From positions 1 to 64,000 of the forward strand of contig JALHMO010000002.1 in assembly GCA_022844015.1 (NCBI GenBank): a stretch of DNA of 64,000 nt. The letters are read 5' to 3'. Below the pieces are notes generated by a model that worked only from the letters and a program-made list of their open reading frames with translations, had not been told where the DNA came from and made no database searches. Origin of the DNA: Reyranella sp. (GTDB lineage: Bacteria > Pseudomonadota > Alphaproteobacteria > Reyranellales > Reyranellaceae). Below, piece by piece: positions 42,406-56,153 of the stretch; position 1 is the first letter of the stretch; each line of letters starts with the position of its first letter. The position numbers were made by a program, and so were the translations under genes.

Positions 42406-43404
42406 TATGGCTTCGGCCTGCAGCAGGTGGCCGCGGTCCTCGCCGAAGGGGGCGTCGACGGCATCGCCGTCGCCGACCAGGCCGACGCGATCGCGCTGCG
42501 CGATCACGAGATACGGGTCCCGATCCTGCTCTATGCCGGCCACCTCGCCAGCCGTGAGACGGTGCAGGCCACCCTCGCCCACGATCTGATCCCGACCCTG
42601 GTCGATACCGCCGAAGCGGCCGCGTACGCCCGGCTGGCGACGCGCCCCCTCGATGTCTTCGTCAAGGTCGATGTCGGGCTCGAACGGATCGGCGTGCCGG
42701 CCGAGCAGGCCGCTGACTTCGTCGTCCATGTCCGCAGCTTGCCCAACCTGCGGGTCACCGGCCTCTATACCCATCTGCAGGTGCCGGCCAACGTGACCGA
42801 CGAATTCCTGCGCTGGCAGGCCGGCCGCTTCGATGCCGTCGTCGCGGCGCTGGCGCGGACAGGCGCGCCGATGCCCTTGCGGATGCTGGCGTCCAGCGCC
42901 TCGCTGGTGCTGATGCCCGGCATCGACTACGACGCCGTCGATCCGGGCAGCCTCCTGTACGGATCGCGTGGCGCCGCCGCAGGACGCATCGATTTCGGCG
43001 TGCGTCCCGTTCTCGACGCCGTCACCAGCCGCATCCTCCAGGTGAAGACGGCGATCTCGCCGCCCCATCCCGACCAGATGCCGTTTCCGTGGACTCCCGG
43101 CATGCGTTTCGCCGTGCTGCCGCTCGGCACGCGCGATGGCCTGCCCCGGTTCAATGCCGGCCGGGTGCTGATCCGCGGGCGCGCCGCGGCCATCCTCGGG
43201 CCGATCTCCATCGAGCACGTGCGGGTCGATGTCACGGACATCTCGGACGCCGCCCCCGGCGACGAGGCGGTCATCGTCGGGCGCCAGGGCGACGCCGAGA
43301 TCCCGTTCGGCGAGGTCATGACGCGATGCGGGCACCGGCGCCTCGCCGACCTGGCGATGGCGGTGGCGTCGACCATCCCTCGTGTCGGCGCGCGCTCGAG
43401 CTAG
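42394..43404 (+). pseudogene. Alanine racemase-like gene, 5' end lost
   Basis: From GDAYGFGLQQVAAVLAEGG onward about 330 residues follow the fold-III barrel and C-terminal domain of alanine racemases (DVFVKVDVGLERIGVPA, LYTHLQVP, DPGSLLYGSR, AVLPLGTRDGLPRFNAG, VDVTDISDAAPGDEAVIVG). The strand before DAYG, with the PLP lysine, is absent; a TGA sits three codons upstream. The usual VGYGRT tyrosine motif is also replaced by a PPHPDQMPFPW segment. A GTG at 42427 could start a shorter protein, but it could not be a normal racemase. Confidence 0.8.
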
Positions 43405-44468
43405 TTGTCCCTGCTCTCCTCGTCCCGGCGCGCCGCCAGCTGCCGCAACTGGCCGTCGAGCTTGTCGAGCACCGCATCGGCCTGGGCGGCACCCTCGAGC
43501 CATTGCGTGTGCTCGCTCGACAGCTGCTCGGCGACGGTCTCGGTGAAGGCGACCAGCGCCTGTGGTTCGCCGGCCTGCAGGCGAGCGACAATGTCGTCGA
43601 TGCGCCCGGCCAGCCGGTCCAGGGCGACGACGGCCTTCTCGTAGCGCTCGGCATTGGCGCGATCGCGCAGCAGGGCCTCGCGGTTGATGGCATAGGCCGC
43701 CAGCGCGGCCCCGACGGTGCCGGCCAGGACCAGCCACACGGCGCTCTTTGACTGGCTGGCGACGATGGCGCCGCTGCCGCCCACGAAGGCGAGCGCGACC
43801 GCGAATGCGCTCAGCCGGCTGGTCGACACGGACGACTCGCGGTGGCGCGACGCTCGTCCGATCATCCACAGCCTCTGGTCGTTCAGCAGGTGAGTGACGA
43901 CGAGGGCCAGCCCGTACAAGGCCGGGCGCGGACCGGCATCGGCCGCCCGCCGCGCCGCTTCCCGGAAGACGTCGAGCCGGGCGACTTCCGCTTCGCCGCG
44001 CTGGGCGAGCCATCGTCCGGCCCGCCCCTGATCCCGCGCGATGTGACTGAAGAACGCTCCGACCGCCCCGAGGGCGATGATGACAAGGCCCAGGACATAG
44101 AGCTGGGGCGCATTGTCGGGCGCCAGCGTCGTCGCCAGCAGCACCAGGGCGCTGACGACACCGGCGCCCGCCAAGCAAATGTTGGCGATGGTCGCCTCGC
44201 GCTTCAGGCTCGCCTGCTGCTCGATCGCCTCCTCGTTGTGCCGCAGATAGCTTTCGACCCGCAGCGTGACCGGCGTCATCTGCAGGATTGCCGCGAGCTC
44301 GGGACACGCCGTCGCGAGCTGCGGCACCAAGGCAGGGACCCGCTGGACGCCGGTCTCTTTGCCGGTCGCGACCGCCGCCGTGCAATCGGAGAAGGCCGGC
44401 AAGGCAGGAGTGCCCGCTGTGGGGGTGACGGGAGGCGGCGGAACGGCGTTGTTCTCCTGGTCAGGCAT
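43401..44468 (-). CDS. Tandem SLATT-like (DUF4231-type) membrane protein
   Basis: About 355 residues. Two similar halves: residues about 75-190 (ESYLRHNEEAIEQQASLKRE, two TM helices, then AQRGEAEVARLDVFREAA) and about 200-320 (LNDQRLWMIGRASRHRE, two TM helices, then LRDRANAERYEKAVVALDRL). This 2-TM plus helix layout is that of SLATT effectors, predicted pore-formers linked to nucleotide-sensing conflict systems. The N-terminus is Pro-rich; the C-terminus is a charged helix. AAGGA precedes MPDQENN. Last gene of a leftward set; its end overlaps the racemase remnant by 4 bp. SLATT assignment is pattern-based. Confidence 0.65.
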   Translation of the reverse strand: MPDQENNAVPPPPVTPTAGTPALPAFSDCTAAVATGKETGVQRVPALVPQLATACPELAAILQMTPVTLRVESYLRHNEEAIEQQASLKREATIANICLAGAGVVSALVLLATTLAPDNAPQLYVLGLVIIALGAVGAFFSHIARDQGRAGRWLAQRGEAEVARLDVFREAARRAADAGPRPALYGLALVVTHLLNDQRLWMIGRASRHRESSVSTSRLSAFAVALAFVGGSGAIVASQSKSAVWLVLAGTVGAALAAYAINREALLRDRANAERYEKAVVALDRLAGRIDDIVARLQAGEPQALVAFTETVAEQLSSEHTQWLEGAAQADAVLDKLDGQLRQLAARRDEESRDN

Positions 44469-44522
44469 GACGTTCCTTGTCATCTGAAAATGCCCTGCGA
44501 GGGGCAAGGCTTCGCCCGGTGC

Positions 44523-45425
44523 TCAGGCGGTGCCGCACTGTACACTTCCCCCGTAGGCATCCCTGTAACGCTGCTCCGCCGCCGCCGCCGCCACTCCTGC
44601 CTGCCGCCGGTCGATCCGGCTGGGAGGCTGCTGGCGATTGGCCGCCCAGACCGCCAGATCGGCCCTCTTGCGCGCCAGGCAGGCAACGCGTGCGTCGTTG
44701 ACCTGGAAGAAATCCATGACCGAGCCGCCGCGCTGCGCCGTCGCGGGGCCGCCGGCCGACGCGCCGATCGGTGCGAGCGCGATCGCCTTCTGCCGGCCGG
44801 CCTGGTATCCCGCGAGCTGGGCGTCGAAATCGGCGTCGCCGGCGCGCTCGTCGAGAATCGCGCGAACCCGGTCGGGCTGCGTGACCTTGTCCTGCGGCTT
44901 CAGCAGGCGCCAGGTCTCGGACGATGCCGCGAGGGTGGCGAGGGGACTGGCGACGGCAAGATAGGCACAGTCGCGCTGCGGCGGAGTCTTGAGCTGCGCG
45001 CAGGCCTCGCTGCCGCGGCTCTGTGCCTCGTTCAGCAGCGCCGCGGCGCCCCCGCCCGCCGCCCCGGGGCTCGAACGTGCCTCCTCGACCAGCGCGAAAT
45101 GAGCCGCCGACGCGGCCAGGCGATAGAACGCGATCCGCGTCTCGACGTCGGACGAGGATACGTTCTGCGCCGCCTTCAGCGCTTCGCGCGAGATATTGGC
45201 GAAGGCAGGACCGAGATTGGCGCCGGGCGGGACGATCATCGAATCGCCGGAAGCGCTCGCCGTCCGGCGAGTGGCCTCGCTCTGGCTCGCCTCGATCGTC
45301 AGCCTCTCGTACGTTGCCGACAGATCGTCCAAGGTGCGCGCCGCGCATCCCGATACCAGGAGAGCGAGCACCGCCCAGAACAGCGCCAGGCGGCCGAGGC
45401 GATCGCGTCGCCGCTCTGTCGTCAT
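44523..45425 (-). CDS. Lipoprotein of unknown function
   Basis: 300 residues. The N-terminus has a basic stretch (TTERRRDRLGR), a hydrophobic helix and the lipobox LVSGC, so it is lipid-anchored. The mature protein is helical and Ala-rich, with four more Cys (CAQLKTPPQRDCAYL pair, then CLARK and QCG near the end) that could form disulfides. No family known to me. Its ATG overlaps the stop of the 627-residue gene upstream (ATGA), so the two are co-translated. Lies 55 bp upstream of the SLATT-like gene. Confidence 0.75.
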   Translation of the reverse strand: MTTERRRDRLGRLALFWAVLALLVSGCAARTLDDLSATYERLTIEASQSEATRRTASASGDSMIVPPGANLGPAFANISREALKAAQNVSSSDVETRIAFYRLAASAAHFALVEEARSSPGAAGGGAAALLNEAQSRGSEACAQLKTPPQRDCAYLAVASPLATLAASSETWRLLKPQDKVTQPDRVRAILDERAGDADFDAQLAGYQAGRQKAIALAPIGASAGGPATAQRGGSVMDFFQVNDARVACLARKRADLAVWAANRQQPPSRIDRRQAGVAAAAAEQRYRDAYGGSVQCGTA

Positions 45426-47305
45426 TGGCCCACTCCCTCGAGCAGCTGCACGACCGTTGCGGCGGCCGGAACCTTCTTCGCGAGAACCTGAAGACCGATG
45501 CGGGCGAACAGCGGCGGAAGACTGCCCGGCAGGATCAGCCCGTCCGGGCTCGCCGCTTCCTTGGCGAGCGTTCGAAGAGCTCCCAGCAGCTCGGCGATCT
45601 GGGCCGGCGTGGCGGCGCGCGCGGCGACGATGTTCAGGCCCTCGACCAGCAGCTCGGCCAGCACCGCCCCGCTCAACACCGGCGGCTTGCCGGCCTCGAG
45701 AAGCTCGCTGGCCTGCAGCAGGACGCCACGAATGAGCTCTGTTCCGGCACCGCTTGCCACAGCGCCCTCGAGCTTGAAGAGCCGGCCCGGATTGCGCGCG
45801 GCAGCCTGGGCGGCGGCCGATGCGACGGCCAGCCAGCCGCCGGCCGTCAGCAGCTCGGCGCCCTGCGCTGCCATGGCGCCGGCGATCGCCGACACGACGG
45901 CGCTGACCTCCGGTCCGGCCACCCCGCCGACGACCAGCTGCGGCGACGCGGCGATCTCGCCCAGCACCACGGTGACCAGTTCGACGGCCTGGGCCGGGGA
46001 CGCCAGCCGCCGCAGCAGCAGGGGATCGCCCTCGCGCAGGACCGGCAGCAGAGCCTCGATGACCCGGCTGACCACATCGCGACCCACGCCATTCCAGCCG
46101 GTGCCGCGCAGCACGAGCGGCAGCGACTCGTTGACGACCTCGAGCGACGTCGCGGCAAGCTCGAGCAGCAGGGTGCGGTTGACGCCGGCCGGCACGGCCG
46201 TGAGCTTGCCGGCCACCTGCTTCACCAGCTCGCGCAGGATCTGCTCGTGGACGGCCGGGGTGCCGGCGGGGACGACGAGCTCGGGGCGGGCGGCAATGAC
46301 GCCGATGGCGGCGGACCAGAAGCGGATCCAGGTATCGCGCAGCAGTAGATCCTGGCCGCCCAGCTTTGCAGCCTCGTCGAGCAGGGAATTGGCCAGCGCA
46401 CCGACGAGCTGGCCCGCATTCGATCCGCCCGGGCCGCCGACGACCTTGCCGAGAAAGAAGCCGCGATCCTGCGCCACGGCGCGAATCGCGCCGACCGCCA
46501 TGGCCGGCAGCCACTGGTCGCGGATCGACTCCCAGCGGACCAGAGCGCCCAGCTGCGCGCCCGCCGGCGCATTGGCCCAGGCCTTCTCGAAGCCGTCCCT
46601 CAGCGGCGCGATCGTCGCGGCGAGCAACGGCTGCAGATGCTGCTCCCGGATCACGATCCCCGGATTGTCGGCCAGCGTCGTGAGACCGGCCCGGAACACC
46701 GTCACCAGCAGCGATTGGGCGAAGTTCGCCCTGATCCAGCGATCGCCTGTCCATTGCTCCGGATCGTTGAGGTCGGGCACCAGCGCGCGGCTGCGATCGG
46801 CGAGGGCGGCTAACGTCTCCAGCAACGGCTGGCTGGTCCCGGTCGGCCCAAGCAGGGCAGGAGACGCCTCGCCAAAATCGAGCGCCACATCGGCGAGTGC
46901 CAGGGCGAGCCGCAGCCAGGGCGGCGGCGGGCCGTCACCTTCCCATTGCCGCACCAGGAAGGCGACCGACCGCGCCGGCTCGAAGGGCGTGGCCGACGGC
47001 GCGCTCGTGCACACGGCGAACCAGGCGGCGACGATCGGCCCCTCGTGCTCGATGCCTTCCCTGAGGCCGTTGGTGTCGGCATCCCAATGGGCGGCAAACG
47101 TGCCGCCCGCGGCGACCCAGGCTTCGTTCCCGGGCTGGCGGAAGAACTCTGCAGCCTGCTCGACCGGCGTTCGCGACACCGTGCCGAGCAACGGCAGGGA
47201 CGCAGGCCGGTCCCGCACATACTGCTCGTAGGCCTCGCGCGAGGCCCGTCCCAGCTTGATCAACCCCTGGACGCCGAAGACCAGCAGCGTGGGCGTGACG
47301 ATCAT
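45422..47305 (-). CDS. Large helical protein of unknown function
   Basis: 627 residues (MIVTPTLLVFGVQGLIKLGR at the start). Almost all helix, rich in Ala, Leu and Val, with many HEAT-like amphipathic stretches (LLLELAATSLEVVNESLPLV, PVLREGDPLLLRRLASPAQA) and no convincing transmembrane helix beyond a possible N-terminal one. I recognise no family or catalytic motif. First gene of the leftward set, coupled to the lipoprotein gene by a 4-bp overlap. It diverges from the patatin gene across a 367-bp gap. Possibly a scaffold or envelope-linked sensor (inference). Confidence 0.8.
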   Translation of the reverse strand: MIVTPTLLVFGVQGLIKLGRASREAYEQYVRDRPASLPLLGTVSRTPVEQAAEFFRQPGNEAWVAAGGTFAAHWDADTNGLREGIEHEGPIVAAWFAVCTSAPSATPFEPARSVAFLVRQWEGDGPPPPWLRLALALADVALDFGEASPALLGPTGTSQPLLETLAALADRSRALVPDLNDPEQWTGDRWIRANFAQSLLVTVFRAGLTTLADNPGIVIREQHLQPLLAATIAPLRDGFEKAWANAPAGAQLGALVRWESIRDQWLPAMAVGAIRAVAQDRGFFLGKVVGGPGGSNAGQLVGALANSLLDEAAKLGGQDLLLRDTWIRFWSAAIGVIAARPELVVPAGTPAVHEQILRELVKQVAGKLTAVPAGVNRTLLLELAATSLEVVNESLPLVLRGTGWNGVGRDVVSRVIEALLPVLREGDPLLLRRLASPAQAVELVTVVLGEIAASPQLVVGGVAGPEVSAVVSAIAGAMAAQGAELLTAGGWLAVASAAAQAAARNPGRLFKLEGAVASGAGTELIRGVLLQASELLEAGKPPVLSGAVLAELLVEGLNIVAARAATPAQIAELLGALRTLAKEAASPDGLILPGSLPPLFARIGLQVLAKKVPAAATVVQLLEGVGQ

Positions 47306-47672
47306 CGCAAGCTTTCAGGTTCGCTCGCAGCGAGCGATGCGCGTGCGTACACCGCGCCCGGACCTGTCGGAGGCCGACGCTCGCCCTCGAAGTTCATCCT
47401 TCCCCCCGTCCGAGTCAGGCAACTCCGTGAGCAGGGTGGCGTGATCGCCAGGGCAATTCAAGGAAGGCGGGTGGCTGCACCCCCTCCCCATTTGCATATC
47501 TTGCGGACAGTTTCGAACACGCAACCAAGGCGCGAGATCGACTATAATCGACACCAGCTGTCATGAGAGCGGGGGAACGCAGCCAGGCGACCCGGGCCAC
47601 CAGGACGACACGGCAGCCGCCGCTCCTCGACGATCGAGGCCACGGAGAGATCGAGCCACGGGAGCACATGCC
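47306..47672. other. Divergent control region of the conflict cluster
   Basis: Separates the leftward membrane module from the rightward effector genes, and no gene is seen in it. A perfect TATAAT at 47543-47548 faces right, 125 bp before the patatin start, but no good -35 sits at the right distance. No long inverted repeat or terminator is visible. Confidence 0.5.
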
Positions 47673-48848
47673 ATGACGAGCAAGGTGCTGGAGCGCATGA
47701 CCGCGCCGGGTCCGAAGAAGATCCTCGCTTGCGACGGCGGCGGGATCTTGGGGCTGATGAGTGTCGAGATCCTGGCCAGGCTGGAGGCCAACCTGCGCGC
47801 CCGGCGCGGCAAGCCCGACCTCGTGCTCGCCGACTATTTCGATTTCGTGTGCGGCACGAGCACGGGAGCGATCATCGCGACCTGCATCGCGATCGGCATG
47901 TCGACGGCGCAGATTCGCGACTTCTACGTCAGGAGCGGACCGCTGATGTTCGAGTCGTCGTCGATCTGGAAGCGCCTGCACTTCGCCTACGACAAGGAGC
48001 CGCTGGCCGAGCTCCTGCGCCAGGAGATCAATCGCTCGCTCGGCTATACCGGGCAGTCCGATCCGCCGGCCACGCTGGGCGACGATCGGCTGCGCACGCT
48101 CCTCATGATGGTGATGCGCAACCACTCGACCGATTCGCCGTGGCCGGTCTCCAACAATCCGCATGCCCGCTACAACGCGCGTGGCCGCAAGGACTGCAAC
48201 CTTGATCTTCCCTTGTGGCAGCTCGTCCGGGCCAGCACCGCCGCGCCGACCTACTTCCCGCCCGAGGTCATCGTGTTCGCCCCTGGCACCGACAAGGAGT
48301 ACTCGTTCCTGTTCGTCGATGGCGGCGTCACGACCTACAACAACCCGGCCTTTCTCGCCTTCCAGATGGCCACTGCCCGGCCTTATGCCGTGAGCTGGAA
48401 GACCGGCATCGACGATCTGCTGATCGTCTCGATCGGCACCGGCCAGGCGCCGCGCGCCCGCCCCGGCCTGCGGGCCGGCGACCTGTCGCTGCTCGATCAC
48501 GCCAGAAGCATTCCGTCCGCCCTGATGAATGGGGCATCGGCCGGGCACGACATGTCGTGCCGGATCCTCGGCGCCTGCCGCTTCGGGGCGCCGATCGACC
48601 GCGAGTTCGGTGCATGCCTGGCGGCAGCCGGCGAGCCCTCCAACTGGACCAGCCCCAAGCTCTTCACCTACGTCCGCTACGATCCGGAGGTCACCAAGGC
48701 AGGCCTCGAAGCTCTCGGGCTGGCCCGCATCGTCCCGGAGAACGTCCAGGTGATGGACTCCGTCGAGTTCGTTGACGACATCCGGAGCGTCGGTGAAGCC
48801 TATGCCGCGAAACACGTGACCACGAACCATTTCTCCAATTTCTCCTGA
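47673..48848 (+). CDS. Patatin-like phospholipase
   Basis: 391 residues. DGGGILG at 21-27 forms the oxyanion hole, GTSTG at 61-65 holds the nucleophile Ser63, and DGG near 216 (FLFVDGGVTTYNNPA) supplies the catalytic Asp, so the Ser-Asp dyad is complete. No signal peptide: a cytoplasmic acyl hydrolase acting on membrane lipid, as in CapV-type effectors of CBASS. GGGAG lies before the ATG. First of four rightward genes; 33 bp to the next. Its C-terminal extension (LFTYVRYDPEV onward) is common in bacterial patatins. Confidence 0.93.
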   Translation: MTSKVLERMTAPGPKKILACDGGGILGLMSVEILARLEANLRARRGKPDLVLADYFDFVCGTSTGAIIATCIAIGMSTAQIRDFYVRSGPLMFESSSIWKRLHFAYDKEPLAELLRQEINRSLGYTGQSDPPATLGDDRLRTLLMMVMRNHSTDSPWPVSNNPHARYNARGRKDCNLDLPLWQLVRASTAAPTYFPPEVIVFAPGTDKEYSFLFVDGGVTTYNNPAFLAFQMATARPYAVSWKTGIDDLLIVSIGTGQAPRARPGLRAGDLSLLDHARSIPSALMNGASAGHDMSCRILGACRFGAPIDREFGACLAAAGEPSNWTSPKLFTYVRYDPEVTKAGLEALGLARIVPENVQVMDSVEFVDDIRSVGEAYAAKHVTTNHFSNFS

Positions 48849-48881
48849 GCTGCCGGTCGAGACGATCGCGGGAGGGCTGCC

Positions 48882-50885
48882 ATGAGCGCTGCACGACGGG
48901 CCTTCGTCATCATGCCGTTCGGCAAGAAGAAGCTGGCCGACGGCACGGAAGTCGATTGCGACGACGTCTACAGGCGGCTGATCCAGCCGGCGATCGGCGC
49001 CGCGGGGCTGGTGGCGCACCGCGCCGACGCCGACCGGCGCGGCGGGTCGATCCATCTCGACATGTTCCAGGACCTGCTCCTGTCGGAATTCGTGGTCGCC
49101 GACCTGACGATGGACAATCCCAATGTCTGGTACGAGATCGGCGTGCGTCATGCCCTGCGCTCCGGCGGCACCGTCATGACCTACGCGGCGCGCGATCGCC
49201 TGCCCTTCGACATCGCCGGCCAGCGCATGCAGCGCTACACGTTGAAGGAAGGCAAGCTCGATCCGGATCGGCTGGAGCAGGAACGCACGGCGCTCGGCGA
49301 GGCCATCGTGGCGACCCTCGGCGCGTGGCGCGGACGGCGCGCCAGCCCGGTCTACCAGACGATCCCGAGCCTGCAGGAACCCGACTGGAAGACCCTCAAG
49401 GTGGGCGACGTCAACGAGTTCTGGGACGCGCTCGACGCTTGGCGCCGGCGTGTCGACATTGCCCGGCGCAACCAGCGGCCCGGCGACATCCTGGTGCTGG
49501 CCGACGAGACGCCCAACAGCCTGCTCGAGTTCGAGGCGCTGCGCACGGCAGCCGACGCGCTCCTGAAGATGAACCGGCCGCGCTACGCCCTCAGGATACT
49601 CGAGGAAGCGCGCAAGCTCGATCCCGACGACGTCAAGGCGATCCAGATCGAAGGCATGGCGCTCGGCCGCGTCGAACGATATGCCGAAGCGCGCGACGTC
49701 CTCACCACGCTGGCAGCCAGGCACAAGGACGGCGAGACGCTCAGTCTCTTCGCCCGCACCTGGAAGGACGAGTGGACCCAGGTCTGGAACACCCATCCCC
49801 AGCGACAGGAGGATCCGGCTGCTGCGGCGCGCGATACGGCGTCCACGCTGCACAATGCCGCCGCCGCCTACCATGACGCGTTTCGCGCCGTCCCCGGCGA
49901 GTACTATCCCGGCATCAATGCCCTGACTTTGGGCAGGCTGTGGGAGCACGTCACGGGGACCGCGAGCAAGCTGCCGCTCGAGAGGATTGCCGCTGGCGTC
50001 GGCTGGACCGCCAGCGTCGCCGTGGAACGCGACAAGGACTACTGGTCGCTGGCCACGCGCGCCGAGATGGCGCTGGTCGAAGGACGCCAGAAGGAGGCTC
50101 TCGCCGACTATGCCGATGCCGCCGCGCTGGCCGTGGCCAACCGCGACCGCTTCGCGCTCGACTCGTCGAGCCAGCAGCTCGACTTCCTGGGTACGCTGGG
50201 CTTCCAGGCCGAGATCGTCGGCGAGGCCGCGAGGATCATCGATCGAGCCGAGAAGCAGCTCGATGCCCTGGTCGGTGGCCGCAAGCCGGCGCAGGTGGAG
50301 CCGCATCGCGTCGTGGTGTTCAGCGGCCACATGATCGACGATCCCGAGGTCCGCGGGCCGGGCAAGGAAAAGCCGGCGCGCTTCCCGCCCGAGAAGATCG
50401 ACGCCGCGGCCAAGGCGATTCGACAAAGGCTCGACAAGATCGGCGCCGCCGCGGGCGATCTCGGCATGTGCGGCGGCGCTTCGGGCGGTGACCTGCTGTT
50501 CGCCGAAGCCTGCCTGGAACGCGGCATGCGGATGGAAGTGCGCCTGGCGCGCCGCGAGGAGGAGTTCCTGGCCGAGTCGGTGACATTCGCCGATCCCGAC
50601 CGCCGCTGGGAGGAAAGCTTCGAGCAGGTCAAGGAGAACAAGGCGACGACGATGCTGGTCATGCCGCAGGAGCTGGGGCCGGCGCCGGCTGGCGTCAGCG
50701 TGCACGATCGCTGCAATCGCTGGATGCTCTACAGCGCGCTGTCGATGGGCCTGCGCAAGACCTACTTCGTCACGCTGTGGATCGGCGAGCCGGGCGATGG
50801 TCCGGGCGGCACCCAGCACATGGTCGAGCTGGTGCGCAAGCTGACGGGCCGCCGGCCGGAGATCATCGATCCGAAGACCCTGTGA
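48882..50885 (+). CDS. DRHyd-like / TRAFs-binding (DUF4071) / SLOG-like protein
   Basis: 667 residues in three parts. About 1-150: a nucleoside-deoxyribosyltransferase-like Rossmannoid (AFVIMPFGKK, LSEFVVADLTMDNPNVWYEI), where the Glu of WYEIG fits the catalytic place. About 195-400: a TPR-like TRAFs-binding domain as in MAP3K5 (GETLSLFARTWKDEW, YHDAFRAVPGEYYPGINALT). About 475-665: a Rossmannoid with VVFSGHMIDD and MCGGASGGDLLFAEACLERG, resembling SLOG nucleotide sensors. No TM segment. Reads directly behind patatin, likely the same transcript. Suggests a sensor/enzyme that makes or reads a nucleotide signal (inference). Confidence 0.8.
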   Translation: MSAARRAFVIMPFGKKKLADGTEVDCDDVYRRLIQPAIGAAGLVAHRADADRRGGSIHLDMFQDLLLSEFVVADLTMDNPNVWYEIGVRHALRSGGTVMTYAARDRLPFDIAGQRMQRYTLKEGKLDPDRLEQERTALGEAIVATLGAWRGRRASPVYQTIPSLQEPDWKTLKVGDVNEFWDALDAWRRRVDIARRNQRPGDILVLADETPNSLLEFEALRTAADALLKMNRPRYALRILEEARKLDPDDVKAIQIEGMALGRVERYAEARDVLTTLAARHKDGETLSLFARTWKDEWTQVWNTHPQRQEDPAAAARDTASTLHNAAAAYHDAFRAVPGEYYPGINALTLGRLWEHVTGTASKLPLERIAAGVGWTASVAVERDKDYWSLATRAEMALVEGRQKEALADYADAAALAVANRDRFALDSSSQQLDFLGTLGFQAEIVGEAARIIDRAEKQLDALVGGRKPAQVEPHRVVVFSGHMIDDPEVRGPGKEKPARFPPEKIDAAAKAIRQRLDKIGAAAGDLGMCGGASGGDLLFAEACLERGMRMEVRLARREEEFLAESVTFADPDRRWEESFEQVKENKATTMLVMPQELGPAPAGVSVHDRCNRWMLYSALSMGLRKTYFVTLWIGEPGDGPGGTQHMVELVRKLTGRRPEIIDPKTL

Positions 50886-51023: not shown

Positions 51024-52466
51024 ATGCCCTATGTCGCCGGGGTCGATCACGATTTCTTCCTGAGCTACGCGCACGGCAACGACCTGCTGCGGGCGTGGTC
51101 GCTGCGCGTCGAGACCAAGCTGCGCGGCTCGCTCGAGATCCTGCTCGGCGACAGGGAGAGAAAGCTGTCGGTCTTCACCGACAGCGAGGACCTGCACGGC
51201 AATGGCTTCCTGACGCCGCAACTCAAGCGCGGTGTCGAATCCTCGGCAGCGATCATCATCATCCTTACCCATCACTACACGAAGTCCCCGTGGTGCCAGC
51301 AGGAGGCGGCATGGTTCGCCTCCGTCGCGCGCGATGCCGCCGACCGCATCTTCGTCATTCGTGCCCAGAACGTGGCGCCGGCCGACTGGCCCGCGCCGCT
51401 GAAACTCAACGGCGAGCCGATGCTGGGCTACTCCTTCTGCGACGAGGACGAGGCGGCTCTGCCCTACGGCCTGCATGGCCAGCAGGAACAGCAGCTCGAC
51501 GGCGCCGTCGTCCGGTTGAGCAAGGCGATGTTCCACTACCTGCGCGGCCGTCGCCCTCCGCAGCCCCGCCCGGCGGCCACGCCGGCCAGCAAGGATCGGC
51601 CCCGGGTGTTCCTGGGCTTCACGACGGAGGATCTCGAGCCGGAGCGGGCAGCGCTGGCCGACCGGCTGTCGGCCGAGGGCACCTTCGACGTCGACGCTCC
51701 CGCCATACCGGACGACATCGAGGAGATTCACGATCGGGTCGTACGCGCCGCCGAGGAATGCTCGGCGCTGGTGCAGGTCTGCGGTCGCGCCTCCGGTCGC
51801 TGGAAACGATCGGCCGACGGCTACATCGCGGGCCAGATACGCCTGTTCGAAGGCAGGCGACGTCCCAACTGGCTGGCGCGGGCGCCCAACCTCGATCTCG
51901 CCAGGCTGCCGTCCTCGCCCTATGCGGACTTCCTGGCGGCGCGCGCCGAGCGCCTCGGCCCGGAGCCGACGGTCGCCGACCTGCGCGGCATCCTGACGGC
52001 GGCCGAGTCGAAGGCAGCTGCCATTGCCTGCACCGTGTTCATCCAGAGCCGCCAGTCGTACGCGTCGGTCGAGCAACGCCTGCGCCAGAAGCTACACGAG
52101 GTCGGCAAGGCCGGCCGGATCAACGCCAGGCTGCTGCCGCTGCCGCCGATCTACGCGACGACCAACCCGCGGCAGATCGAGGCCCTGCTCGAGCAGCGCA
52201 GCCAACGCGCCGTCGACATCCAGGCCGAGATCCTGCTTCTGACGGAGAACAGGGAACTGCTCGGCGAGGACCTGGACGAGTATTGGCGCGATTCGAGCAG
52301 CGGCGCGGCAACCTGGCCCGCCGCCATCGTCGATGCCACGACGGGTGGTCCGGTCATGACGGAGGCCGACATGGGCCATCCAGTGTTCCGCCTGGAAGAT
52401 CCGGCATTCGCAGCGAGCTTCGCCGACTGGTTGCGCCAGTGCGCCGCGCAGCGGGTCGCGTCGTGA
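51024..52466 (+). CDS. TIR-domain protein
   Basis: 480 residues. TIR domain at about 5-165: HDFFLSYAHGND opens it, DLHGNGFLTPQLKRGVESS is the box 2 region, and SPWCQQEAAWFA holds the Glu expected to be catalytic in NAD-cleaving TIRs. A second unit near 190-300 begins RVFLGFTTEDLEPERAALAD, like DUF4062-type TIR relatives. A third near 335-475 (ACTVFIQSRQSYASVEQRL, ILLLTENRELLGEDLDEY) may be another Rossmannoid. No TM segment. GGAGA before the ATG. Its stop overlaps the GTG of the STAND gene, so the pair is coupled and probably forms a unit. Confidence 0.88.
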   Translation: MPYVAGVDHDFFLSYAHGNDLLRAWSLRVETKLRGSLEILLGDRERKLSVFTDSEDLHGNGFLTPQLKRGVESSAAIIIILTHHYTKSPWCQQEAAWFASVARDAADRIFVIRAQNVAPADWPAPLKLNGEPMLGYSFCDEDEAALPYGLHGQQEQQLDGAVVRLSKAMFHYLRGRRPPQPRPAATPASKDRPRVFLGFTTEDLEPERAALADRLSAEGTFDVDAPAIPDDIEEIHDRVVRAAEECSALVQVCGRASGRWKRSADGYIAGQIRLFEGRRRPNWLARAPNLDLARLPSSPYADFLAARAERLGPEPTVADLRGILTAAESKAAAIACTVFIQSRQSYASVEQRLRQKLHEVGKAGRINARLLPLPPIYATTNPRQIEALLEQRSQRAVDIQAEILLLTENRELLGEDLDEYWRDSSSGAATWPAAIVDATTGGPVMTEADMGHPVFRLEDPAFAASFADWLRQCAAQRVAS

Positions 52467-55012
52467 GCGACGCCGCCGCCGTCCACCTGCCGCCGCCGAC
52501 CGCACGGCGACGCAGCGGGCCGCCCTATCCTGGATTTCGGCCCTTCCGGCGCGACGAATGGCAGATATTCTTCGGCCGCGATCGGCAAGTAAAGGCGCTG
52601 CTGAAGCTCCTGGCCGACCATCACTTCATCTGCATGCACGGCCCGTCCGGCTCGGGGAAGTCGTCGCTCATCGAGGCCGGGCTGATCGCCACGCTGGAGC
52701 GCGGGCACCGTCGCCTGGGCACGGACTGGTTCACCGGCACGTTCCGGCCTGGCGCCGCTCCCTTGCTCAATCTCGCCCGCGGCCTGCTCGACGCCCTGGG
52801 TGATAAGGTCGAACGCACCGAAGCATCGGTGGTCGAGATGCACAGCCGGCTGGTGCGACCCGGCGGCTCGATCGCCCGTGCCGTGCGCGAGTCGGGATTG
52901 CCGCGCGGCGGCAACCTTCTCCTGGTGGCGGACCAATTCGAGGAGCTGTTCCGCTTCCGTGCGTTGGGCGACCCGCAGGAAGCCGTGCGCTTCGTGGATC
53001 TGCTGCTCGACGTCTTCGACGAGCAGCCGGACGGGGTGCACGTCGCCATCGCCACGCGCACCGATTTCCTCGGCGACTTCTCCGACATCGTGGGCCTCGC
53101 CGAGGCGGCGAACGCCGCCCCCTACCTCACGCCGGCCCTGACCGAGGACGAGCTGCGGGCCGCCATCCGCGGTCCCGCCGAGTTGCACGGCGGCAGCATC
53201 GACCCGCAGCTCGTCGAGGCGCTGCTCACCGATTCCGCCGACGAGCCCGATCGCCTCCCCATCCTGCAGCACGCACTGATGCGGTGCTGGGACGTCGCCG
53301 ACCGCCTCGGGACGCCGGGCAGGCTCACGTTCGACGTCTATCGCTCGGACGCGATCAGGAGCGTGCGCGACGCGCTCAACAGTCACGCCGATGAGGTGAT
53401 GCAAAGCCCCGAGCTGAAAGGCCTGGAGCGCGACGTCGAGCTGACGTTCCGGGCGCTGACCGATCTCGACGGCCAGCGACGGGCGATCCGCCGGCCCCTG
53501 CCGTGGTCGCAGCTGCTGGCGGAGACCGGCAGCCCGCCGCCCGGCGAGGCGAAGGACGGCCACGCCGAGCCGCTGCCGGTGGAGCGCGTGGTCAACCGCT
53601 TCCGGGCGGAAGGCACGGGCTTCCTCGGGCGGCCACGCCCGGAGGAGAAGGAGCTGAAGCCGGACACCGTCGTCGACATCGCGCACGAGGCGTTGATCCG
53701 GCGCTGGCGGCGCATGAACCGCCGCGCCGAGCCGGGCAGAGGCCGGCCGCGCGATGGCTGGCTGTGGGATCAGGTCGAGGACGGCCATCTCTACCGCGCC
53801 CTGCTGATCGGCGCGCGGACCACGGACGAGGTCGTCAGCGCCGACAGCCTCGAGAGCCGGCTGGCCTGGTGGCAGCGTCAACCGCGCACGCCGGCCTGGG
53901 CACGCAGGCTCTCGGACAATCGCGACGCGACGGAGCAGGATGCCAGGAACGATCTCGCCGGCATCGAGGCGTTGTTCGAGCGCAGCGCGATGGCGCGAAA
54001 GCGCAAGCGCTGGTTCAGCCTCCTCACGCTCCTCGGCATGATCGCCATCGTCGCGGTGCCGATCTACATCGTCGTGAAGGAAGCCGAACGAGAGGAGGAA
54101 CGACGGCTGGAGGCCATCCAGCGGGAAAAGGAACGGTCGGCCTTGAGGGAAGAGGACCTGATCAACCGGGGCCGGGCGGCCGCGGAGCGCGATGCCGCGC
54201 AACGACAGCTGGCCGATACCCAGGAAGCCCTTTCGCGGACGAAGGCCGAGCTCGAGGAGGCCAATCGTCGTCTTGCGTCGACATCATCGACCTCGGGCAG
54301 GGCTCCCGTGATGGTCGACACCCCGACATCGGGAGATCGGGTGGCTCAGATCGCCCTGAAGGTGCGCCCGGAACAGAAGCCCGAGACGACCGGAGCCCCG
54401 AGCTGCGAAGGCGCCTTGTGGATCGGCTCGGGCAACGCGGCGAATCTCGAGGTTGTCGACGGCACCTCCCGGCGGCCGGCCAGGCTGGACGAGGTCCGGA
54501 CGGATCGGCAGTTCATCCTCGCCAAGAATCTCTACCTGCGCAAGGACCTGCCCAGGCGCGAAGGCTACGTCCAGCAGGAATCGATCGGCATCGCGCCCAG
54601 GGGCGCGCAGATCGTCGTCCTCGGCGATCCCGAGCGATTCGACCGGCCTTCGGGTCCGCAGTACTGGGTGAAAGCCCGTGTTGCCGGCCAGGTCTGCTCG
54701 CTGGTCTATTTTCAGTTCGCCAAGGGCTCGGAACCCGAGGCGCGCAAGCTCGCCAAGGCACTCGAGGCCGATGGCTATCTCGTGCCCGGCCAGGAGGCGC
54801 TGAGTTCCGCCGTCGGGCTCGCCGAGGTCCGCTACTACTACGACGACGATCGTGCTGCTGCCGAGCAATTGGCCAAGGATGCCACATCCGATGCCCGCGA
54901 GCTCGGCCTGGCCCGCAACCGAACAATCAAGGTGCAGGACCTCACGAGGTGGAAGGGCACCAAGCCGCCACCAGGGACATTGGAGCTGTGGCTCGACCTG
55001 TCCGACCGCTGA
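52463..55012 (+). CDS. nSTAND1-type NTPase with membrane anchor and C-terminal sensor-like domain
   Basis: 849 residues, GTG start inside the TIR stop codon (GTGA). PYPGFRPFRRDEWQIFFGRD is the nSTAND1 entry motif, MHGPSGSGKSSLIEAG near 58-73 is the Walker A, LLVADQFEELFRF is the Walker B, and a winged-helix-like arm follows. A TM helix lies near 517-538 (WFSLLTLLGMIAIVAVPIYI), then a coiled coil to about 615, then a C-terminal domain (about 635-849) with a LytR_C/SPOR-like end (AEVRYYYDDDRAAAEQLAKD, GTLELWL). STAND ATPases oligomerise on sensing a trigger. Here the C-terminal part is probably outside the inner membrane. Confidence 0.87.
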   Translation: MSDAAAVHLPPPTARRRSGPPYPGFRPFRRDEWQIFFGRDRQVKALLKLLADHHFICMHGPSGSGKSSLIEAGLIATLERGHRRLGTDWFTGTFRPGAAPLLNLARGLLDALGDKVERTEASVVEMHSRLVRPGGSIARAVRESGLPRGGNLLLVADQFEELFRFRALGDPQEAVRFVDLLLDVFDEQPDGVHVAIATRTDFLGDFSDIVGLAEAANAAPYLTPALTEDELRAAIRGPAELHGGSIDPQLVEALLTDSADEPDRLPILQHALMRCWDVADRLGTPGRLTFDVYRSDAIRSVRDALNSHADEVMQSPELKGLERDVELTFRALTDLDGQRRAIRRPLPWSQLLAETGSPPPGEAKDGHAEPLPVERVVNRFRAEGTGFLGRPRPEEKELKPDTVVDIAHEALIRRWRRMNRRAEPGRGRPRDGWLWDQVEDGHLYRALLIGARTTDEVVSADSLESRLAWWQRQPRTPAWARRLSDNRDATEQDARNDLAGIEALFERSAMARKRKRWFSLLTLLGMIAIVAVPIYIVVKEAEREEERRLEAIQREKERSALREEDLINRGRAAAERDAAQRQLADTQEALSRTKAELEEANRRLASTSSTSGRAPVMVDTPTSGDRVAQIALKVRPEQKPETTGAPSCEGALWIGSGNAANLEVVDGTSRRPARLDEVRTDRQFILAKNLYLRKDLPRREGYVQQESIGIAPRGAQIVVLGDPERFDRPSGPQYWVKARVAGQVCSLVYFQFAKGSEPEARKLAKALEADGYLVPGQEALSSAVGLAEVRYYYDDDRAAAEQLAKDATSDARELGLARNRTIKVQDLTRWKGTKPPPGTLELWLDLSDR

Positions 55013-55070: not shown

Positions 55071-56078
55071 CTACTCGATCACCTCGTCGGCGGAAGCGAC
55101 CAGCGTCGGCGCCACGGTGACGCCGATCTCCTGCGCGGCCTTGAGGTTCACGGCCAGGACGAACCTGGTCGCGTTCTGCACCGGGAGCTCCGCCGGCGTG
55201 CTGCCGTCGAGCACGCGATCGACATAGACGGCGGCACGCCGGATCAGGTCCCCCGGGTCGATGCCGTAGGACATCAGGCCACCCGCCTCGGTGATGAAGC
55301 GGTCGGCGTACACCGCCGGCAGGCGATGCCGGCCGACGGCGGCGAGAATGGTAGTGCGCCGCACGGCCGTGAAGATGTGCGGCACGGCGAGCATGCTGGC
55401 GCCCTTGTCCTGCGCAATCCGGGCGATCGCCGGCGCGATGTCGGATTCGTGCTCGATCGTCGAGGTGTGGAGGGTGATCCCGTAGGTCGGCGCGATGGCG
55501 TCGAGGGTACGCAGCATCAGATCGGCATAAGGTGCGGTCGCCGGGTTGTAGAGCGCCGTCGCCCGGGTCACAGGCGGGCTGAGCTGGGTCAGCATCGACA
55601 GCCACTTCCCGGCCAGCGGCGGATCGTAGTCGGCGAAGCCGGTGGCGTTGCCACCGGGGCTGGCCAGGCTGCGGACGAAGCCCTGCGCGACCGGATCGGT
55701 GACCCGCGCAAAGACGATCGGGATCGTGCGCGTGGCTCTCAGCAGTGCCGCGGTGGCCGGGCTGGTCTGGCAGAAGACGACATCGGGCGCCAGCGCGACC
55801 AGCTCGGAGGCGTAGCGCTCGAACAGGGCGCCTTCGCCGCTCGCCCAACGCCAGTCGATCGCGAGATTGTCGCCGGCGCGCCATCCGAGATCGCCGAGAG
55901 CGCGTACGAAGATGTCGGCGAAGCCCTTCCACAGAGGATCGCCGCCGGAGCCGGCCATCAGGACACCGAGCCGGCGCGCGCCTCCGGCGCCTCGAGGTTG
56001 GGCGCCCAGCGGACCCGGCAAGAGGGTCGCGGCGGTGCCCGCAAGCAGGGTACGCCGCCTCACAGGGCTGGAACCCAT
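55071..56078 (-). CDS. ABC-type substrate-binding protein (PF04392 family)
   Basis: 335 residues. Twin-arginine-like signal (SSPVRRRTLLAGTAATLLPG), then VLMAGSGGDPLWKGF, VFARVTDPVAQGFVRSLASP, ALYNPATAPYADL and an end of AAQEIGVTVAPTLVASADEV typical of the family. Paralogue of the protein at 26832 but only distantly similar. No permease or ATPase gene next to it. Start chosen to put the RR motif near the N-terminus. Faces the STAND gene convergently with a 58-bp gap, and probably marks the right border of the conflict cluster. Confidence 0.87.
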   Translation of the reverse strand: MGSSPVRRRTLLAGTAATLLPGPLGAQPRGAGGARRLGVLMAGSGGDPLWKGFADIFVRALGDLGWRAGDNLAIDWRWASGEGALFERYASELVALAPDVVFCQTSPATAALLRATRTIPIVFARVTDPVAQGFVRSLASPGGNATGFADYDPPLAGKWLSMLTQLSPPVTRATALYNPATAPYADLMLRTLDAIAPTYGITLHTSTIEHESDIAPAIARIAQDKGASMLAVPHIFTAVRRTTILAAVGRHRLPAVYADRFITEAGGLMSYGIDPGDLIRRAAVYVDRVLDGSTPAELPVQNATRFVLAVNLKAAQEIGVTVAPTLVASADEVIE

Positions 56079-56153
56079 GACGTCACGTCTGATTTCACGC
56101 ACGTCAGATCATACGCGTCGCCGTCACGCTGGTCTCAGCGGATTTTCCCTCCA

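Follow-up and report, generated by a model that had tools for sequence, protein, structure and literature searches.

A 667-aa protein that joins a DRHyd domain, a TPR-S region and a SLOG-like domain is best read as the controller of a putative self-destruct defence system, a reading of the sequence comparisons that we adopt because its family adjoins membrane-degrading or other cell-killing enzymes across many phyla. The protein is encoded at positions 48882-50885 (+ strand, ATG to TGA) of the window, the 64,000-nucleotide stretch of Reyranella sp. DNA analysed here. Our computations show three folds, an invariant Glu, a partnership with a patatin that has repeatedly re-formed, and the replacement of that patatin by other death effectors; catalysis, substrate, identity of the signal, direction of signalling and an anti-phage role are what we infer.

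The three-domain gene and its locus

The three-domain gene begins 33 bp after the gene of a 391-aa patatin-like phospholipase (47673-48848, +), which was recognized by PF01734 (1.7e-24), by the CBASS phospholipase model of PADLOC (2.6e-43), by its similarity to CapV (8zr9, 1.8e-15) and by its motifs. The catalytic dyad of this patatin is intact (GTS63TG and D216GG), and its score with the NCBIfam model CBASS_lipase is 110.5 against a cut-off of 200. Downstream, after 138 bp, lies the gene of a TIR protein (51024-52466, +; TIR_2, 1.8e-12), whose stop overlaps by 4 bp the start of a gene encoding an nSTAND1 NTPase (52463-55012, +; PF20703, 2.4e-75) with relatives in other loci. The second, C-terminal domain of the TIR protein is a weak match to DUF4062 (0.0053; 17.4 bits against a cut-off of 24.7).

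Divergent from the patatin gene are the genes of a 627-aa protein without a Pfam match (45422-47305, -) and of a lipoprotein-like protein (44523-45425, -), for neither of which relatives were found in the fetched loci. The same divergent flank of the island includes a possible SLATT-type membrane protein (43401-44507, -; SLATT_1, 0.0015, below the cut-off) with a relative in locus L065. The locus is bounded by an alanine racemase gene (42427-43404) and by the gene of an ABC substrate-binding protein (55071-56102, -), and known defence models gave zero matches in its wider flanks.

An antisense ORF (47415-50819, -) was ruled out as a true gene, because a model of codon usage, built from those ORFs of the locus that have homology support, retains the gene on the + strand and because the + frame is matched full-length by relatives (in the closest of them at 65% to 83%, depending on the domain). 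The 667-aa ORF is a real gene.

Three predicted folds

The AlphaFold2 (AF2) model of the whole protein, computed with 50 sequences (mean pLDDT 85.9), consists of a Rossmannoid, a helical repeat and a second Rossmannoid, in agreement with the three-domain architecture proposed in a first-pass annotation of the same DNA, and both motifs quoted there are present. Since a Foldseek search with the whole protein was flooded by ordinary TPR proteins, the DRHyd domain (residues 1-150; 48882-49331, +) was folded alone (pLDDT 83.7). Its best PDB matches were MilB, a CMP N-glycosidase, and DNPH1, a 2'-deoxynucleoside 5'-phosphate N-hydrolase (TMt 0.52-0.67), both of them N-glycosidases of the deoxyribosyltransferase superfamily, with TIR domains next. 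The domain model thus has the fold of the DRHyd / nucleoside deoxyribosyltransferase (N-glycosidase) superfamily.

The sequence comparison led to the same enzymes, as a profile of 57 DRHyd domains searched against the PDB sequences gave a best E of 0.0027, with DNPH1/RCL chains making up 12 of its 13 matches; a narrower DRHyd profile was uninformative against the same sequences. With the broader profile, the Glu of NPNVWYEIG, which the first-pass annotation had singled out for mutation, is aligned to that of YELG in DNPH1, and the V-x-Y-E-x-G motif of the superfamily is present with its catalytic Glu. This residue, Glu85 (codon 49134-49136, +), is invariant in 50/50 and in 57/57 relatives, and Arg47 and Asp49 are likewise invariant in 57/57. 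We regard the domain as a putative N-glycosidase with Glu85 as its predicted nucleophile. The substrates of the nearest solved enzymes, DNPH1 and MilB, are nucleoside monophosphates and not NAD+, and therefore the substrate of the DRHyd domain need not be NAD+. Hypothetical proteins like the DRHyd domain alone were seen in three streptococcal prophages (KT337370.1, KY065458.1 and MK448901.1).

The middle of the protein is a TPR-S scaffold/sensor region (residues 200-464; 49479-50273, +), identified by PF20308 (residues 236-350, E=7.4e-17; 62.3 bits against a gathering cut-off of 27.6), by the helices of the AF2 model and by the presence of ASK1 (8qgy) among the Foldseek matches; PF20308 is present in 50/50 relatives. 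This part had earlier been called TRAFs-binding; TPR-S is the better name. The MAP3K TRAFs-binding model PF13281 is matched at E<=0.01 by 37 of 50 relatives (best 4.1e-11), but the protein of the window falls below the cut-off (E=0.014; 14.9 against 24.1 bits). The zero matches returned by a genome-wide search with the TRAFs-binding model fit this weak score.

The C-terminal SLOG-like domain (residues 474-667; 50301-50882, +) is strongly conserved in the motifs GHMxDxP, RFP, GGAxGGD and GDGPGGT, within which G482-H-M, D486, R500-F-P, G535, D537 and G642-G-T are invariant. A SLOG/DprA-like fold is predicted, as a DprA-like (SLOG-fold) phage protein was among the best viral-structure matches of the whole three-domain model (TMt 0.71, E=0.002) and the AF2 model has an alternating strand-helix pattern. 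Support from sequence is weak: the SLOG Pfam model YAcAr reaches 13.6 bits against a cut-off of 28.2 (E 0.06), and PDB sequence searches with this domain alone were uninformative. Structure prediction, which had been proposed as the check on the deoxyribosyltransferase-like and SLOG folds, therefore returned both of them (MilB/DNPH1 and DprA-like, respectively). Taken together, these matches go far past what chance would give.

Distribution of the family

An alignment of the SLOG domain was scanned against 84,980 species genomes, giving 196 relatives, the best 80 of which were kept as loci; these 80 are best matches and not a random sample. The three domains are encoded in one ORF in 53 of them (50, and three longer), the SLOG domain stands alone in 24, and in three the DRHyd domain is encoded apart from the other two or its frame is broken. 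The hosts belong to the Pseudomonadota (including alphaproteobacteria), Nitrospirota, Myxococcota, Cyanobacteriota and Chlorobiota, besides a planctomycete bin and a Nitrososphaerota (archaeal) bin, and a search of 24 further genomes of the genus gave no full-length relative. Viral contigs yielded no relative of the SLOG family and phage records none of the three-domain protein, so that nothing points to the gene being phage cargo.

A conserved patatin partner

A patatin relative lies at most 500 bp from the SLOG gene in 33/80 loci; among the 60 loci that have 1.5 kb or more on each side (roomy loci, below), 26 have it. As a rule the two genes share a strand and almost touch, with the patatin upstream in the clade of the window and downstream in most others. 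Among 72,556 plasmid records the patatin was found at E<=1e-30 in only two, and in both the locus also contains relatives of DRHyd and SLOG. Within the class, 4/385 genomes hold a patatin of the window type at E<=1e-25, namely the genome of the window, G147, where a three-domain protein is close by, G115, where the patatin has no DRHyd/SLOG-type neighbour, and G094, where it adjoins another SLOG-like protein with a 4-bp overlap. At L144:3327-5036 (-), in another alphaproteobacterium, the same patatin subfamily overlaps a different SLOG-like protein by 4 bp.

The trees of the two partners differ. In the tree of the three-domain protein, the window protein and that of another Reyranella locus (L060) are sisters (100/99). 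In a quick patatin tree, the window patatin joins that of L063 (support 99) within a clade of 17 rows (98) that includes betaproteobacterial and Nitrospira patatins, and that of L060 joins L066 (98), close to patatins of Rhizobium and Bradyrhizobium. The slot is identical in the two loci, 24-33 bp upstream of the three-domain gene. From these tree placements, the patatin appears to have been exchanged relative to the nearest relative while its slot was kept, and a swap of this kind has no easy explanation unless the two proteins function as a pair. The coupling of the three-domain protein to the patatin is thus well supported by context. The patatin also pairs with DRHyd-TPR-S proteins that have no SLOG (L099, L101 and L126), and therefore the SLOG domain may not be the only switch of the patatin.

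Other effectors, fusions and splits

Effectors were counted by clustering the ORF calls made in this analysis within 7 kb of the family gene. An adjacent patatin is missing in 34/60 roomy loci, and in these a large lipase-CHAT protein (12/34) or a caspase (8/34) was found; the caspase cluster and an adjacent patatin occur together in 0/26 roomy loci. For 18 of the 34 roomy loci lacking the patatin, the clustering showed no effector from any of the five clusters counted. Across the other loci, the effectors near or fused to the family include CHAT/lipase, caspase C14, clostripain, TIR and SLATT. Proteins of about 1,800 aa with a lipase-LCAT-CHAT organization stand beside caspase C14 genes in L099, L100, L126, L132 and others, as alternative partners.

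The first-pass annotation had the protein signalling to the patatin or to the TIR protein. The link to the patatin is strong, given the conserved adjacency, the re-pairing and a SLOG-patatin fusion, whereas that to TIR is weaker, TIR-nSTAND genes being found in only 12/89 clustered loci. The fusion is carried by a plasmid of Rhodococcus sp. JS3073 (L048:9412-11094), where a SLOG domain fused to a patatin directly follows a separate DRHyd-TPR-S gene, with a TIR-nSTAND1-WD40 gene upstream of the pair. It is a natural one-piece receptor-effector, suited to biochemistry.

Further outputs are joined to the same domains elsewhere. In the cyanobacterial loci L095 and L136 a SLATT_1 membrane effector is fused ahead of DRHyd-TPR-S-SLOG; a third ORF, in L138, is of similar length. 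Another contig of the window's own genome (L055:6136-8409; G000 contig C111) encodes a TPR-S (1.2e-11) fused to a different patatin (4.7e-17), and in two distant relatives (L058:8797-10872 and L059:5739-7502) a single protein carries a class III nucleotidyl cyclase behind TPR-S and SLOG. Since TPR-S/SLOG fusions have such differing outputs, the two domains behave as a recurrent sensor pair whose outputs are exchangeable. The ORF adjoining the cyclase gene of L059 is TIR-like in appearance, and at L051:7447-8457 (-) a second DRHyd, fused to a PLD-like domain, separates the patatin gene from that of the three-domain protein.

A possible signalling relay and its alternatives

The Rhodococcus layout is that of Thoeris with other parts, and for this reason we take DRHyd as the signal maker, SLOG/TPR-S as the receiver and the patatin as the killer, a relay to which we give an even chance of being right. 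A trigger, probably phage infection, would cause the DRHyd domain to cleave, by means of Glu85, the N-glycosidic bond of NAD+ or of a nucleoside monophosphate, and the SLOG and TPR-S domains would read either its product or the disappearance of its substrate. A conformational change through the TPR scaffold could then release the adjacent CapV-like patatin, which would attack membrane phospholipids, and the cell would be stopped or killed. The cassette would operate in the manner of Thoeris or CBASS, with different components. One protein may thus both process and sense a nucleotide, as had been suggested from the sequence.

The order of events could also be different, with the DRHyd domain as an effector by which NAD+ or (d)NMPs are depleted, the trigger being sensed by TPR-S and SLOG, and the patatin acting as a parallel second effector of the same sensor. 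The related TIR and DUF4062 domains are NADase effectors (PMC13174449), and the class III cyclase that replaces DRHyd in TPR-S-SLOG fusions makes DRHyd look like an exchangeable output. However, the Rhodococcus SLOG-patatin protein, encoded next to its own DRHyd-TPR-S gene, and SLATT added onto all three domains fit a chain of generator, receptor and effector better, since each adds a dedicated killer to DRHyd, so that we consider an effector role of DRHyd unlikely, if worth keeping in view.

It is quite improbable, in our judgement, that the neighbouring TIR protein makes a cADPR-type signal for which the three-domain protein is receptor and scaffold only, with DRHyd degrading the signal to reset the system. 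The TIR gene does lie within 138 bp of the three-domain gene, and TIR-nSTAND genes adjoin the family in Rhodococcus, Rhizobium 31B and others, but their occurrence in only 12 of the 89 clustered loci argues that TIR is not an obligatory source of the signal, and a separate promoter-like site, albeit one no more than expected by chance, precedes the TIR gene. That the two proteins are a housekeeping pair of enzymes for nucleotide salvage or lipid signalling, with no role in conflict, is very improbable: the best fold matches, DNPH1 and MilB, are indeed sanitation or biosynthetic N-glycosidases, but the family is patchy in the genus, its patatin has been exchanged, and in other loci it keeps company with caspase, CHAT, clostripain and SLATT, all of them traits usual for conflict systems.

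If the DRHyd-to-patatin relay is true, it would explain how CapV-like patatins are switched on without a cyclic-nucleotide synthase, by way of a widespread family, and base removal of the DNPH1 type would be an added nucleotide chemistry in immune signalling. Because nature has both split and fused these domains, the order of signalling can be tested directly.

Comparison with ASK1 and with known defence systems

TPR-S has reportedly been proposed, by Burroughs and Aravind in 2020 (J Bacteriol), as a scaffold that reads NAD+-derived signals and is present in the ASK signalosome. A passage of a later article (PMC8195603) cites the 2020 proposal that components of the ASK signalosome derive from bacterial conflict systems. 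Metazoan ASK1 (MAP3K5) shares with the three-domain protein the TPR-S/TRAFs-binding region, its cryo-EM structure 8qgy being a Foldseek match over 492 columns, and an alpha/beta domain ahead of the TPRs; in contrast, the TM-scores of the whole model are low (0.25-0.28) and the kinase is absent from the three-domain protein. Homology of DRHyd to the first domain of ASK1 is supported neither by the DRHyd sequence profile nor by the DRHyd-only fold search, in which ASK1 was absent among the top 50 matches. The family would, if our reading is true, offer a simple bacterial relative in which to study the function of the ASK1 TPR region.

A more ambitious proposal, which we put forward tentatively and think more doubtful than probable, is that the family represents a third major type of nucleotide-relay immunity beside CBASS and Thoeris, with a DNPH1-like deoxyribohydrolase as maker of a nucleotide signal, a SLOG receptor and a set of killers that can replace one another (patatin, CHAT, caspase, clostripain, SLATT pore), DRHyd-TPR-S being the bacterial ancestor of the thioredoxin-binding and TPR regions of ASK1. 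Our literature search, outside which the 2020 TPR-S paper lay, found no paper testing the DRHyd-TPR-S-SLOG family.

As for CBASS with a CapV/CapE phospholipase, the window patatin is related to CapV (8zr9, E=1.8e-15; PADLOC, 2.6e-43), but the genome of the window (83% complete) gave no match to a CBASS CD-NTase (SMODS, PF18144), and the locus is not assigned to CBASS. Swarozyc, reported in 2026, is a DUF4062 protein that acts as a TIR-like NADase with anti-phage activity (PMC13174449); the likeness here is confined to the weak, below-cut-off DUF4062 match of the neighbouring TIR protein, outside the three-domain protein. In Thoeris, the SLOG domain of ThsA binds 3'cADPR made by a TIR protein and thereby opens a SIR2 NADase (PMC11204291). 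Both systems (in Thoeris, ThsB TIR and ThsA SIR2-SLOG) combine a TIR/DRHyd-class enzyme with a SLOG receptor gating a killing enzyme, but the locus of the window has DRHyd for TIR and patatin for SIR2, its receptor is fused to the enzyme and not to the effector, and its four operon proteins include neither a SIR2 nor a macro match, so that it does not have the Thoeris composition of a TIR ThsB with a SIR2-SLOG or TM-macro ThsA. With the TPR-S systems of Burroughs and Aravind the protein has the TPR-S domain (PF20308) in common; the three-domain family is a variant of this already known, mostly predicted class of TPR-S nucleotide sensors, for which the re-pairing with patatins and the SLOG-patatin split were measured in the present analysis.
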